A stretch of 64,000 nt of DNA, from NCBI GenBank assembly GCA_016192525.1, contig JACPTZ010000091.1:1-64000 (forward strand), written 5' to 3'. Shown here piece by piece: positions 37,697-60,779 of this stretch. A program made the translations under genes and the position numbers. Below the pieces are notes generated by a model. The model did no database searches. It worked only from the letters and a program-made list of their open reading frames with translations, and was not told where the DNA came from. Within the stretch, counting starts at the first letter, position 1; each line of letters opens with the position of its first letter. The DNA is from Planctomycetota bacterium (GTDB taxonomy: Bacteria > Planctomycetota > MHYJ01 > JACPTZ01).

Positions 37697-38133
37697 GACC
37701 GCAAAGGGGGGGACCGCGAATTACGCGAATTACGCAAATTCAAACAGCAACAACAGCAGCAACAACAACAGCAACAACAGCAGCAACAACAGCAGCAACA
37801 ACAACAGCAACAACAACAGCAGCAACAACGGCATCATCAGCAGCAACAACAACTGCACCAACGACTGCGGCGACGGCAACAAGGATTGCTGCATTCCAGC
37901 AATTCTATTCCCTCTCCCTGCTACATTCTCCTCTGTTTCCGCAACTGTTTCTTCCCTTGTTTCTGCTGCAGTTTCTTTCCTCCCTACTGCTTCTGCTTCT
38001 GTCTTGTCCTCTCGTTTCTGCTTCTGTTCTGTTATCGCTTGTCATTTCGTTTCTGCTTCTGTTTCCCGACCCCTTCTCTTCCTCTTTTAATTCGCGTAAT
38101 TCGCGTAATTCGCGGTTCTCCCTCTTTGCGGTC
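37697..38133. repeat. Large hairpin element: 40+ nt TIR (ACCGCGAATTACGCGAATTACGC) around (CAR)n and pyrimidine-rich arms
   Basis: Left GACCGCAAAGGGGGGGACCGCGAATTACGCGAATTACGCAAATT; right AATTCGCGTAATTCGCGTAATTCGCGGTTCTCCCTCTTTGCGGTC. Confidence 0.85.
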
Positions 38134-49364: not shown

Positions 49365-49590
49365 TTTCTCTGTTTTCGCCTTCTTCCCCCACCGCTGTCT
49401 TCTGGCTGGCGTGCTGTTGTTGTTTCTGTTCCCCCTCATTCTCTTGCCATCCGTTGTTGTTTCTGTCCCACCCTCCCATTCTTCTGTCATCCGTTGTTGC
49501 CTCTGTTCCCCCTCCCGTCTTCTTGTCATCCGTTGTCGTTTCTTGAAATTCGCGGCCATTCGCGCCATTCGCGGTTCCCCTTCCGTTTCG
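49365..49590. repeat. Half-element of the purine/pyrimidine hairpin family (AATTCGCGGCCATTCGCGCCATTCGCGG arm, CCGTTGTTGTTTCTGT tandem units)
   Basis: Pyrimidine-rich tract with repeated CATCCGTTGTTG(T/C)(T/C)TCTGT units and only the right-hand flank. Confidence 0.6.
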
Positions 49591-56336: not shown

Positions 56337-59300
56337 TCACTTCCGTCCCGGACCCGCCCCGTCCCCCAGCGACCAGATCACCCCCAGCGGCGGACGAGGG
56401 CGCGCGTCCATCGAAAGCACCCGGCCGTCGGAGAGACCGAGGAGGAGGAGCGGCCGCGTCCCGACCGTGAATCCGTCCGTCTCCCTGACCTCGGCGACGG
56501 CGAATTCGTACGGCAGACTGAACCGGCCCAGCGGCTTCCCGTCCGCCCCGCTGTAGCAGAAGACCTGACCCGAAATCGTTACGGCCGCGACGTCGTGTCG
56601 CCCGTCGCCGTCCATGTCGGGTCCCCATCCCACGATGTCGAACGAGACCGAGAGCGGGAGTCCGACCTTCCAGAGTGTCTTTCCGTTCGCCGATGAGATC
56701 GCATCGAGGCGGGTGCGCCAGTTCTCCGCGACGAGATCGCACACGCCGTCCCCGTCGATGTCGCAGGGCCAGGGGTAGTAGGCGGAGTAGTCGTCCCCCT
56801 CCGAGACCCAGTCGGCGGCGGCCTCCCGCACCCCCTTCGCATGGACATGGCCGTCATTCCCAAGCCCCACCAGCCGGAACTCCCCCCCGGGGGCGGGGCA
56901 GACAAAGCCCTGCCACCACGAGATGTCCGGGTCCACCTCCCGCTCGTGGAGGAGCGTCCCCCGCGCCCCGTCCAGCGTGTAGAGCACGCTCTTCGACTCC
57001 ACCAGCACGTCCGGGACGCCGTCGCCGTTCCGGTCCGTCAGGGAGTGGCATGTCGCGACTCCCTCGAGGCAAATCCTCCAGAGCGGCCCGGCACTCCTCC
57101 GCGCCACCGCGCTGACGGCCGAACATCCCTCGACCGCCCTCGGGTCCGCCTTCTGCGCCAGAGGACCGATCGGCGTGGCACCGGGCCCCGGCGCCTCCTC
57201 GCCCAGCAGGAAGTCGCCGCGGCCGTCCCGGTTCAGGTCGAGGGCGGCGCCGGCCCAGAAGGCGCCCGTGGGGACCGGATACTTCCAGAGGACTTCCCCC
57301 GTGGTGAGACTCATCTCCTGCAGGGCGTAGCTGGTCACTCCGCACACGCTCCCCCGATCGGGCCGCACGCTCTGATTCCAGCCGATGACCCCGAAATGGT
57401 GCCCGGCTCGCCCCTGACGCCACATCCTTCGCCCGTCCTCCCCCGCGAAGCAGACGAAGGGGCCGGAATCCGACCCGCTGAGGATGGCGGGCGCGCGCCC
57501 CGGACCGGCGTCAAGCAGCTCGAAGAAGCTGACTCTCCCCTCACGGCGATTCGCCCATTCCAGCCGACCGGGCTGGACGCTCACCGCGTAGATCACCCCG
57601 TCCTTAGAGGTGAAGACCGCCTCGGCGACGCCGTCGCCGTCGAGATCGGCCACCTCGATCCCCGAGATGATCTGGTTCCCCGTGCGGAACTTCCAGAGGA
57701 GCCCGCCGTCGCGACCGGAGAGGCAGTGGACGCAGGCGTCGTCTGACCCGACGAGGAGATCGGGGATGTCGTCGCCGTCCACCCGGCACGAGGAAACGCG
57801 CCCCCAGACCTCGTAATCCGTCTCGTGTTTCCAGAGGAGGGCCGGCGCCCGGCTTCCGTCCGCCTCAGGCCCGGAAAGCCGGGAGGGATCGAGGGCGTAG
57901 ACGAAATTGTCCCCGGATCCAATCACCACGTCGTCCCGGCCGTCGCCGTTCAGGTCGACCAGCTCCGCTGTCGATGGGATGTGTTTCCCGGTCTGGTATC
58001 GCCATATCTCGCGCCCGTCGACGCCGGAGAAGGCGTGGACCCGGCCCGCCCAGTCGCCGACGACAGCGTCCGGCACGTCGTCCGCGTCCATCTTCCCGAG
58101 GACGGGCGAGGCGTTGAAACCCGACTTCGCGGGGAGCGGCACCTTCCAGAGCAGAGTGCCCGCCCGACCCGACACGGCGTAGAGGTTCGACTCGGTCGAG
58201 ATCGCGACAACATCCGGGACGGCGTCGCGGTCGAGGTCGGCGAGGGCCGGGATGGACCAGAACTTGGGCCCCGCCGAGAACCGCCACAGCGGCGCCCCGT
58301 CGCGCCCGGAGAAGGCCGAGATGGCGCCCTCCTGTTCGAGGGCGATCACGTCCCGGATGCCGTCGCCGTTCAGGTCCGCCGCGGCCGGCCGGTTGAGATA
58401 CGAGCCGGCGATGGGCGCGCTCCATCGCTCCTTCCCGTCGCCCCCGATCGCGTGGAGCGCGGCGCTGCTCTGGGAGAGCACTTCGGGGCGCCCGTCCCCG
58501 TCCAGGTCCGCCACGGCCGGGCAGGACTTCACCTCGTCCACCGTCTCGAAGCGCCAGACCTCGCCGATCGTGCCCGGCCGGAGCACGATGAGCACCCCGA
58601 CGTCCAGGCCGCAGACGATCTCGGGGATCGCGTCGCCGTCGAGATCGGCGACCACGGGGGAGGTCTCGAGCATCACGGCGGCGTTGTATTTCCAGAAGAG
58701 CATCGGGGAGAGGGTGGCGTGGAGATCGACGGCGGCCTCGCGCCCGATCTCGACGAGGCGCGAGCAGGGGAAGGTGTTCTCCTTCTCGATGACGAGATTC
58801 CAGGCGCCGGTGTCGAGTTCGATCCCCTCGCGGGGCAGGGCGAACTCGTGCTCGGCCCCCCCCTCACGGAGACGGGCGCGCAGCGTGGCCTGGTCCACGT
58901 TGGTCGTCACGTTCAGCGTGCCGGTCTCGTGCCGCAGGGGGATCGAGACCGACTCCCTCGAGAGGGCGCCGAGGCGGAGCCCCTGCTGGGCGGGGACGTA
59001 CCCGTCGCGGCGGAGCCCGATCTGGCGGAAGCCGGGCGGCCAGACCGCCATCCCCTCGACCGGCGTCACGCGGCCGGTGTCCTCCTCGTTCAGGAAGACC
59101 CGCGCGCCGGACGGGTCCGAGTCCACGGACAGTCGGGCGGGCCCGAAGAGGAGGGCGCCGAGCGCCAGGAGGAGCGCGGCGGCGGAGGCGATCGCCCCGG
59201 CGGCGAGCGGGTTGCGGCGGACCCTTCGCCGGAACCGCTCGAGGAAACCGGTCGGCCGCGCGAGGATCGGCTCGTCCGCCAGGGTGCGGCGAAGATCGTC

Positions 59301-60440
59301 GGCGAGCGCCTCCGCGCTCGCGTAACGGCGGGCCGGGTCTTTCTCGAGGCACCGCATCGCGATGGTCTCCAGATCCACCGGGACCTGCGGATTCAGGCGG
59401 CGGGGCGGGATGGGGTCTTCGAGCTGGATCTTCGCGATGAGGGGGGCGAAGTCCGGCGCGTCGAAGGGGGGGCGGAGCGTCAGCATCTCGTAGAGGATGG
59501 CGCCGACCGCGTACACATCGGTGTGGGGACCGACGAGGGAGGTCTTTCCGGCGGCCTGCTCGGGGGACATGTAGGCCGGGGTGCCCATGACCTCGCCGCT
59601 CGTGGTGAGCGTCTGGGTGCCCGCCTCCTTGGCGAGGCCGAAGTCGATCACGTAGACGTGGTCGTAGTAGTCGGGGACCGGGTGGCGGTCGCTGTCAGGG
59701 GTGGCCCGGGCGGCGGGCCCGCTGGGCGGGGTGGCACGGGCTTCATGCCCGCCGGGTGGGGTGGCACGGGCGGCTTGTCCGCCCGTGCCTCTGGGGCTGG
59801 AGTCCGGATGGAGACCCGACGTGAGCGCCCCACCGTGCCGCACCGTCGTCGCATCTGGGGTGGCGGCCCCGGGGGCGGGTGAAGGGCCATCCTGGGGTGG
59901 CACGGGCGGCTTGCCCGCCCGTGCCCCCGCCGGCGCATCGTCCGCCCCTGCACCCTCCGCCCGCGGCGTCGTTCCTGCGCGCGGTCCGTTCCCGCCGCGA
60001 GGCCGGTCGCTCCGGGTGACGATGACGTTCTGCGGCTTGATATCCCGGTGCACGATGCCGCGCGAATGGGCGGAGTGGAGGGCCTCGGCGATCTGGCGCG
60101 CGATGTCGGCGGCGCGGTCGAAGGTGATGCGCTGATCGCGCAGGACGCGGGCGAGGTCGTCGCCGTCGAGGAACTCCATCACGTAGTAGAAGGTGCCGTC
60201 GGTCTCCCCCATGTCGATGACGGCGCAGATGTGCGGGTGGGAGACCTGTCCGAGGACGTGCGCCTCGCGCCGGAACCGGGCGAGGCCGACCGGGTCTTCG
60301 GCGAGGTCGCGCGGGAGGACCTTGAGGGCGACCTTGCGGCCGATGTGGGCCTGTTCGGCGAGGTAGACATCGCCCATCCCCCCCCGGCCGATGCGGCCGA
60401 CGATGCGGTAGTTTCCAAGTTGGACCGGGAGGGCGGGCAT
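56337..60440 (-). CDS. Giant Ser/Thr protein kinase with PEGA-like domain and VCBS/FG-GAP/PQQ beta-propeller
   Basis: IGRGGMGDVYLAEQ, HRDIKPQNVIV, DFGLAKEAG, MSPEQAAGK; TM AIASAAALLLALGALLFG; many DLDGDGxxE repeats. Confidence 0.93.
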   Translation of the reverse strand: MPALPVQLGNYRIVGRIGRGGMGDVYLAEQAHIGRKVALKVLPRDLAEDPVGLARFRREAHVLGQVSHPHICAVIDMGETDGTFYYVMEFLDGDDLARVLRDQRITFDRAADIARQIAEALHSAHSRGIVHRDIKPQNVIVTRSDRPRGGNGPRAGTTPRAEGAGADDAPAGARAGKPPVPPQDGPSPAPGAATPDATTVRHGGALTSGLHPDSSPRGTGGQAARATPPGGHEARATPPSGPAARATPDSDRHPVPDYYDHVYVIDFGLAKEAGTQTLTTSGEVMGTPAYMSPEQAAGKTSLVGPHTDVYAVGAILYEMLTLRPPFDAPDFAPLIAKIQLEDPIPPRRLNPQVPVDLETIAMRCLEKDPARRYASAEALADDLRRTLADEPILARPTGFLERFRRRVRRNPLAAGAIASAAALLLALGALLFGPARLSVDSDPSGARVFLNEEDTGRVTPVEGMAVWPPGFRQIGLRRDGYVPAQQGLRLGALSRESVSIPLRHETGTLNVTTNVDQATLRARLREGGAEHEFALPREGIELDTGAWNLVIEKENTFPCSRLVEIGREAAVDLHATLSPMLFWKYNAAVMLETSPVVADLDGDAIPEIVCGLDVGVLIVLRPGTIGEVWRFETVDEVKSCPAVADLDGDGRPEVLSQSSAALHAIGGDGKERWSAPIAGSYLNRPAAADLNGDGIRDVIALEQEGAISAFSGRDGAPLWRFSAGPKFWSIPALADLDRDAVPDVVAISTESNLYAVSGRAGTLLWKVPLPAKSGFNASPVLGKMDADDVPDAVVGDWAGRVHAFSGVDGREIWRYQTGKHIPSTAELVDLNGDGRDDVVIGSGDNFVYALDPSRLSGPEADGSRAPALLWKHETDYEVWGRVSSCRVDGDDIPDLLVGSDDACVHCLSGRDGGLLWKFRTGNQIISGIEVADLDGDGVAEAVFTSKDGVIYAVSVQPGRLEWANRREGRVSFFELLDAGPGRAPAILSGSDSGPFVCFAGEDGRRMWRQGRAGHHFGVIGWNQSVRPDRGSVCGVTSYALQEMSLTTGEVLWKYPVPTGAFWAGAALDLNRDGRGDFLLGEEAPGPGATPIGPLAQKADPRAVEGCSAVSAVARRSAGPLWRICLEGVATCHSLTDRNGDGVPDVLVESKSVLYTLDGARGTLLHEREVDPDISWWQGFVCPAPGGEFRLVGLGNDGHVHAKGVREAAADWVSEGDDYSAYYPWPCDIDGDGVCDLVAENWRTRLDAISSANGKTLWKVGLPLSVSFDIVGWGPDMDGDGRHDVAAVTISGQVFCYSGADGKPLGRFSLPYEFAVAEVRETDGFTVGTRPLLLLGLSDGRVLSMDARPRPPLGVIWSLGDGAGPGRK
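59690..60015. repeat. In-frame repeat-derived insertion within the kinase domain (GGGGTGGCACGGGCGGC-type palindromes)
   Basis: Several GGGTGGC(A/C)CGGGCGGC...GCCCGCCCGTGCC palindromes between the HRD catalytic loop and DFG motif. Confidence 0.75.
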
Positions 60441-60519: not shown

Positions 60520-60612
60520 GACCACGCGTCTCACCCGCGTGGCGCGATCCCTCGGAATCCGCCGGAGCCCCCGGGTCCGCCATGCCCTGGATCGGCAGGT
60601 CCTGGACGTGGA
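60520..60612 (+). pseudogene. Relic of a ribbon-helix-helix-like antitoxin (paralogue of 62694 ORF)
   Basis: RLTRVARSLGIRRSPRVRHALDRQVLDVE versus RLTRVARSPGVPRSLPVRWALDRYVLDAE at 62.7 kb. Confidence 0.6.
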
Positions 60613-60754
60613 ACCAGGCTCCGTCTGAGAACGGGCGATCTGCACGGTGCGCTCGGTAGCACAGGCTTTCTAGCCTGTGCCGCACAGGCTCGAAAGCCTG
60701 TGCTACCGACTTCCTTCCGCATCCCACGTTCTCAGACAGAGCCTGGTTCCACGT
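60607..60754. repeat. Nested inverted repeats: outer ACGTGGAACCAGGCTCYGTCTGAGAACG, inner CGGTAGCACAGGCTTTC..GCCTGTGCTACCG
   Basis: Outer arms 60607-60634 / 60727-60754; inner element 60655-60708. Confidence 0.85.
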
Positions 60755-60779
60755 CCCAGCGGAGGATACCAGGCGCGCC

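Follow-up and report, generated by a model that had tools for sequence, protein, structure and literature searches.

Copies of a Dispersed GTGG-Type REP Element in a Long Loop of a Planctomycetota Ser/Thr Kinase

The Kinase Gene and Its Divided Catalytic Domain

The window, that is, the whole 64,000-nucleotide stretch of Planctomycetota DNA that was analyzed, encodes on its minus strand a large Hanks-type Ser/Thr kinase. Pfam matches within this open reading frame comprise Pkinase (E 8e-46), PEGA, FG-GAP_3, and PQQ_2, in the order of a Pkinase match that is broken into two stretches at residue 143, followed by PEGA and FG-GAP/PQQ propeller repeats. An Rfam search of the 64-kb window returned a tRNA as its sole match. 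The features of the kinase gene are as follows.

56337..60440, minus strand: Hanks-type Ser/Thr kinase with a C-terminal part of PEGA and FG-GAP/PQQ beta-propeller, 1367 aa
60027..60050, minus strand: catalytic loop HRDIKPQN, residues 131-138
59673..60017, minus strand: extended beta7-beta8 loop, residues 142-256, placed by coordinates, alignment position, and predicted disorder
59637..59645, minus strand: DFG motif, residues 266-268

The HRD and DFG motifs lie 135 residues apart, start to start, and the beta7-beta8 loop between conserved flanks accounts for 115 residues (345 nt), with 80% G+C and abundant Pro, Ala, Gly, and Arg. The insertion that a first-pass annotation had reported between these motifs is thus real and lies close to where it had been drawn. 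Its claim of a palindromic repeat carried in frame within the catalytic lobe also stands.

In an AlphaFold model built with an 11-row alignment, the kinase fold is confident (pLDDT mostly above 90), with strands at residues 139-147 and 258-264, whereas residues 150-253 are structureless (pLDDT under 50). The best PDB matches of the model are PknB and PknA, with a TM of about 0.9 by target length. The Gly-rich loop, the VALK lysine, HRD, DFG, and the kinase fold are all present, as judged from sequence and predicted structure. The insert is therefore predicted to extend the beta7-beta8 hairpin as a disordered excursion, clear of the HRD and DFG motifs themselves. Modeling had been put forward to see whether the insert loops out, and it is predicted to do so; the enzyme is probably intact.

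REP Units within the Kinase Loop

A profile trained on 90 genomic copies from outside the window recognizes two REP units in the loop as intact (E 9e-10 and 4e-9), and it matches another only weakly (E 0.16). Exact copies of GGGTGGCACGGGC lie at 59729, 59759, and 59895, and the copy at 59699 has one mismatch. The four units are the following.

59698..59727, plus strand: decayed REP-like copy (GGGTGGCCCGGGC), the one-mismatch unit, in the same 30-nt array as the next; hairpin z 0.3
59728..59757, plus strand: decayed REP copy belonging to the 30-nt tandem array, with a weak 5' half (E 0.16); hairpin z -0.4
59758..59790, plus strand: intact REP copy, minus-strand reading RGTGGQAARATP, in a frame that differs from that of the 59894 copy; E 8.6e-10; hairpin z -5.2
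59894..59927, plus strand: intact REP copy, minus-strand reading GARAGKPPVPPQ; E 4.2e-9; hairpin z -5.4

The two intact copies form 11-bp hairpins far better than shuffles do, whereas the two decayed copies do not, so that the multiple palindromes of the first-pass annotation hold as two intact and two decayed copies. Its description of the insert as repeat-derived fits the four units, which jointly make up about 127 of the 345 nt, a little more than one-third of the 115 residues, but not the rest, which is without recognizable REP sequence.

The two intact copies lie 136 nt apart and are read in different frames, giving the peptides GTGGQAARAT and ARAGKPPVPP. This distance and difference of frame argue against one being an in-frame duplicate of the other, and the use of different frames within one loop argues for a DNA element that is indifferent to the protein. 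On this basis, the intact copies look like separate insertions, and they do not form a plus-minus inverted pair. Three units follow one another at an exact 30-nt spacing (59698-59787), and it is only this array that looks like a tandem expansion, later in origin and kept in frame.

A Dispersed REP Family in the Source Genome

The source genome (G000) is a fragmented draft of 4.18 Mb in 227 contigs, 82% complete, and the 12-mer seed GGTGGCACGGGC occurs 129 times in it, against 2 occurrences of a reversed-letter control. The 16-mer GGGTGGCACGGGCGGC is present in 62 copies and is absent from 22 other genomes of the class; with 294 genomes of the phylum scanned, a 13-mer has 124 copies in the source genome and at most 7 in any other. 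A search of the genome for the repeat unit outside the kinase, which had been proposed at the outset, thus yields dispersed copies that are mostly intergenic. The palindrome is a dispersed, lineage-specific REP element with a GTGG head and a hairpin, and it represents a new sequence family.

The unit is about 31 nt long and consists of a GTGG tetranucleotide and a hairpin with an 11-bp stem and a 5-nt loop (z about -5); the stem length lies within the 7-20 bp of REPs of the GTAG/GTGG type, and all six frames of the consensus are free of stop codons. Among 83 hairpins gathered by stem alone, a GGTG head stands on exactly one side in 79 and on both sides in none, and a G precedes the head in 77 of the 79 headed hairpins; since the loci had been preselected with a head-containing pattern, the presence of the head is partly built in, and it is the one-sidedness that is informative.

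Many copies elsewhere in the genome form inverted plus-minus pairs, 50-75 nt apart, which is the REPIN layout, and the remaining copies are single or in tandem arrays; some copies lie close to contig ends. The array on contig C76, outside predicted genes, has a spacing of 44 nt, which is not a multiple of three, whereas that in the kinase has a spacing of 30 nt. A subset of the inverted pairs is enclosed in a larger element that is bounded by inverted ends, CTAGTGGGCCTTCAAGATTGAA. Such MITE-like elements, about 130 bp long and with the inverted REP pair mid-element, are found at G000:C4, C15, C36, C46, C89, C154, C180, C183, C224, and others, and the CTAG at their ends suggests what we take to be an IS630-like TA target.

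In the standard model, REPs are mobilized by a RAYT. The source genome contains five Y1 transposase genes, one of which encodes a RAYT, as follows.

L015, 1453-1998 (G000:C192): REP_Tyr_transpos (RAYT), NCBIfam, 98.5 bits against a cut-off of 80

This gene has GTGG-headed palindromes on both sides, in near-identical 61-bp direct repeats, which belong to a sibling REP family (GTGGCCCGG.., about 10 genomic copies) and are not exact copies of the kinase-loop REP. No RAYT in this genome (82% complete) could be identified as cognate to the kinase-loop family, and we infer the RAYT link to that family.

Other repeats were also noted. Between genes at 60604-60756, the window holds a MITE-like element with 36-nt inverted ends (92% complementary, GGACGTGGAACCAGGCTC...), and within it, at 60653-60709, a GTAG-headed inverted pair GTAGCACAGGCTTTCTAGCCTGTGC; this is a second REP family, with the layout of a REPIN that is nested between longer inverted ends. 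A 43-nt tandem palindromic array CCCGGCCCTGAAGGGCCGGG adjoins an IS200-type transposase gene at L011 (G000:C61, 1099-1399) and is possibly a third palindrome family. Tandem repeats also occur in the window at 37743-37862 (10 copies of the 12-nt unit AACAGCAACAAC) and at 49416-49543 (3.3 copies of a 40-nt unit).

REP Copies in Other Genes

We assessed 77 REP clusters from the DNA stretches around them, using a codon model trained on that DNA, so that the gene calls are approximate. Only 17 of the 77 lie inside predicted genes against 69% expected at random placement (p 4e-17), which is a strong depletion. In-frame REP sequence is nonetheless found in about 16 other predicted genes, several of which, but not all, have Pfam-supported domains, including the following.

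L106, 973-3093 (G000:C217): nitrite/sulphite-reductase-family protein with the REP-encoded segment GTGGLSARASGGLSTRASGGLSARA
L042: GT4 glycosyltransferase with a REP copy (Pfam)
L065: NtrC-type regulator with REP between the AAA lid and the HTH (Pfam)
L070: second kinase, with REP upstream of the catalytic domain (Pfam)

In L106, the nearest solved homolog continues without a segment at the point where the REP-encoded GTGGLSARASGGLSTRASGGLSARA interrupts the protein. In L063, the seed is present without the full palindrome and may be a chance occurrence. The intragenic copies are read in the three frames without Cys and Trp in 21 of 24 cases, suggesting that copies in the other frames were selected against once inserted. 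The palindromic element is thus carried in frame by several unrelated protein genes, a property shared with Rickettsia RPE-like palindromes.

The Loop Was Already Long in Related Kinases

In a tree of 34 kinases sampled in the class, with relatives compared at class level or more distantly, the window kinase and eight others from three families in all form one clade with support 100/100. The HRD-DFG gap is long in all nine members and measures 65-89 residues in the other eight, which lack these REPs, so that the 15-20 residues that the first-pass annotation had taken as the normal spacing do not apply to this subfamily. Outside the clade, too, several positions in the tree have long loops (58 to 122). 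Because the other subfamily members already have a long loop, the REPs would have entered a pre-extended one. Compared with its relatives, the window kinase has some 45-70 extra residues, of which recognizable REP units account for about 42.

Alignment with related kinases, which had been put forward as a check, shows a long loop common to all nine with conserved edges (an xRGxRxR-like start and a PSPxxxDHxYxIDFG-like end) and a middle that does not align; an RFF-like stretch within the loop is common to members from one family, and the REP part is not found in the other eight. A profile of the loop end, made from a short alignment in which one row was a hand-made variant widening the pattern, recovered one subfamily ortholog (L146, from a Planctomycetota MAG) together with ordinary kinases, and a contig profile search with the C-terminal 1120 residues of the window kinase found no relative. 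Across nine aligned N-lobe segments, no stretch was conserved strongly enough to serve as a profile. Hairpins comparable to the REP are absent from the long loops of L142, L132, and L036, and REPs are therefore unnecessary for long loops.

Low codon score was tried as a mark of repeat origin and rejected: the insert has a score of -0.11 and its flanks one of 0.45, but REP-free paralog loops are about as low (-0.07 and -0.11), so that codon bias does not discriminate.

Another kinase of the same genome, L114 (G000:C122:40000-46000), has a 105-residue HRD-DFG gap, and its loop, at the same position, consists partly of a different, degenerate heptamer-like 7-nt repeat (GGACGAC, GGACGAA).

Origin of the Insert

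We propose, with a probability of roughly 0.88, that a REP family spread through this genome, entered an already long, disordered kinase loop at least twice independently, and grew there in part as an array while the kinase fold was kept. The lineage-specific, approximately 31-nt GTGG REP would have spread through the planctomycete genome, with a RAYT transposase acting on single-stranded hairpins as the presumed mechanism. At least two independent insertions into the DNA of the beta7-beta8 loop would then have been followed by growth of part of the inserted REP sequence as the 30-nt in-frame tandem array. The added peptide, rich in Gly, Ala, Pro, and Arg, would have been tolerated, and perhaps neutral, with the fold and motifs kept and kinase activity probably retained. 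The predicted disorder, together with a loop that in this subfamily already extended some 45-70 residues beyond the usual turn, supports that the added peptide was tolerated.

The first-pass annotation had favored a palindromic repeat that expanded in frame inside the kinase gene itself, with no mobile element. The exact 30-nt spacing of the three units at 59698-59787 fits such an expansion, which may indeed be true of the array; as an account of the origin of the unit it is contradicted by the more than 100 copies elsewhere in the genome and by the 59894 copy, which shares neither the frame nor the register of the array, and we regard it as very improbable. There is a similarly slim chance that the loop is a conserved regulatory insert domain of the subfamily, which looks repeat-like only in the window kinase. 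The conserved edges of the long loop in nine of nine members and the RFF-like stretch in one family would be expected of such a domain, but the middle of the loop cannot be aligned between members, AlphaFold gives it no structure, and the REP part is read in two frames within the one loop and recurs in unrelated proteins and intergenic DNA. That repeats were collapsed or joined at the kinase locus during assembly or binning is barely credible. The draft is fragmented, with some REP copies close to the ends of contigs; the kinase locus, however, is deep inside a 206-kb contig, far from its ends, with the frame open across all repeat units and with flanks that match one kinase fold.

A broader extension of the proposal that REPs invaded a pre-extended loop is that the beta7-beta8 loop of kinases throughout the class is a standing landing site for mobile palindromes and for other repeats, which feed long disordered loops that gain regulatory roles. 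We consider this unlikely and offer it as speculation; if true, REPs would shape kinase signaling and would be more than merely tolerated.

Comparison with Known Systems

Canonical REPs carry GT[AG]G at the foot of the hairpin, 0-2 nt 5' and on one side only (PMC6006769). GTGG variants are known from Opitutus terrae, intragenic GTAG/GTGG REPs occur in a range of bacteria including Opitutus terrae and Thauera, and in Thauera and R. conorii there are REP clusters that encode 43-82 residues (BMC Genomics 2013, PMC3733652). Like this GTAG/GTGG superfamily, the planctomycete element has a GTGG-type head, a short GC-rich hairpin, more than 100 copies, and inverted pairs, and it is mostly intergenic with some copies inside ORFs. 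It differs in that its sequence family is new, its host belongs to an uncultured Planctomycetota lineage, and it occupies a pre-extended kinase beta7-beta8 loop. On in-frame REPs in planctomycete kinases, we found nothing in the literature more specific than PMC3733652.

Rickettsia palindromic elements are likewise carried in frame in protein genes, in the account of Ogata et al. (2000) as reviewed in PMC2229807, and main-type RPEs measure 105-146 bp (PMC2229807). The likeness is one of behavior: both are palindromic selfish DNA in frame in unrelated protein genes, at tolerant sites, but the planctomycete unit, which is of the GTGG type, is only about 31 nt long. The inverted pairs of REPs, together with a REP_Tyr_transpos gene between GTGG-headed palindromes, recall the REPIN/RAYT systems (PMC3116915, PMC2817692), from which the planctomycete case differs in that the neighbors of its RAYT are sibling REPs and many of its pairs lie inside longer terminal inverted repeats. 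The window kinase itself resembles bacterial Ser/Thr kinases of the PknB/PknA type in its fold, HRD, DFG, and other motifs, and departs from them in its 115-residue beta7-beta8 loop and its C-terminal PEGA and FG-GAP propeller part.

The behavior is thus already known from Rickettsia, Opitutus, and others, and what is new is the sequence family and its host. The findings add one more PVC-group genome to the few with REPs that are read as protein, and they provide a case of independent REP copies in one loop, in two frames. They point to loops and linkers, mostly in frames without Cys and Trp, as the sites where such DNA survives. Finally, they correct a plausible misreading of the motif spacing in this kinase, as the distance between HRD and DFG spans 20 to 135 residues across the sampled kinases of the class.
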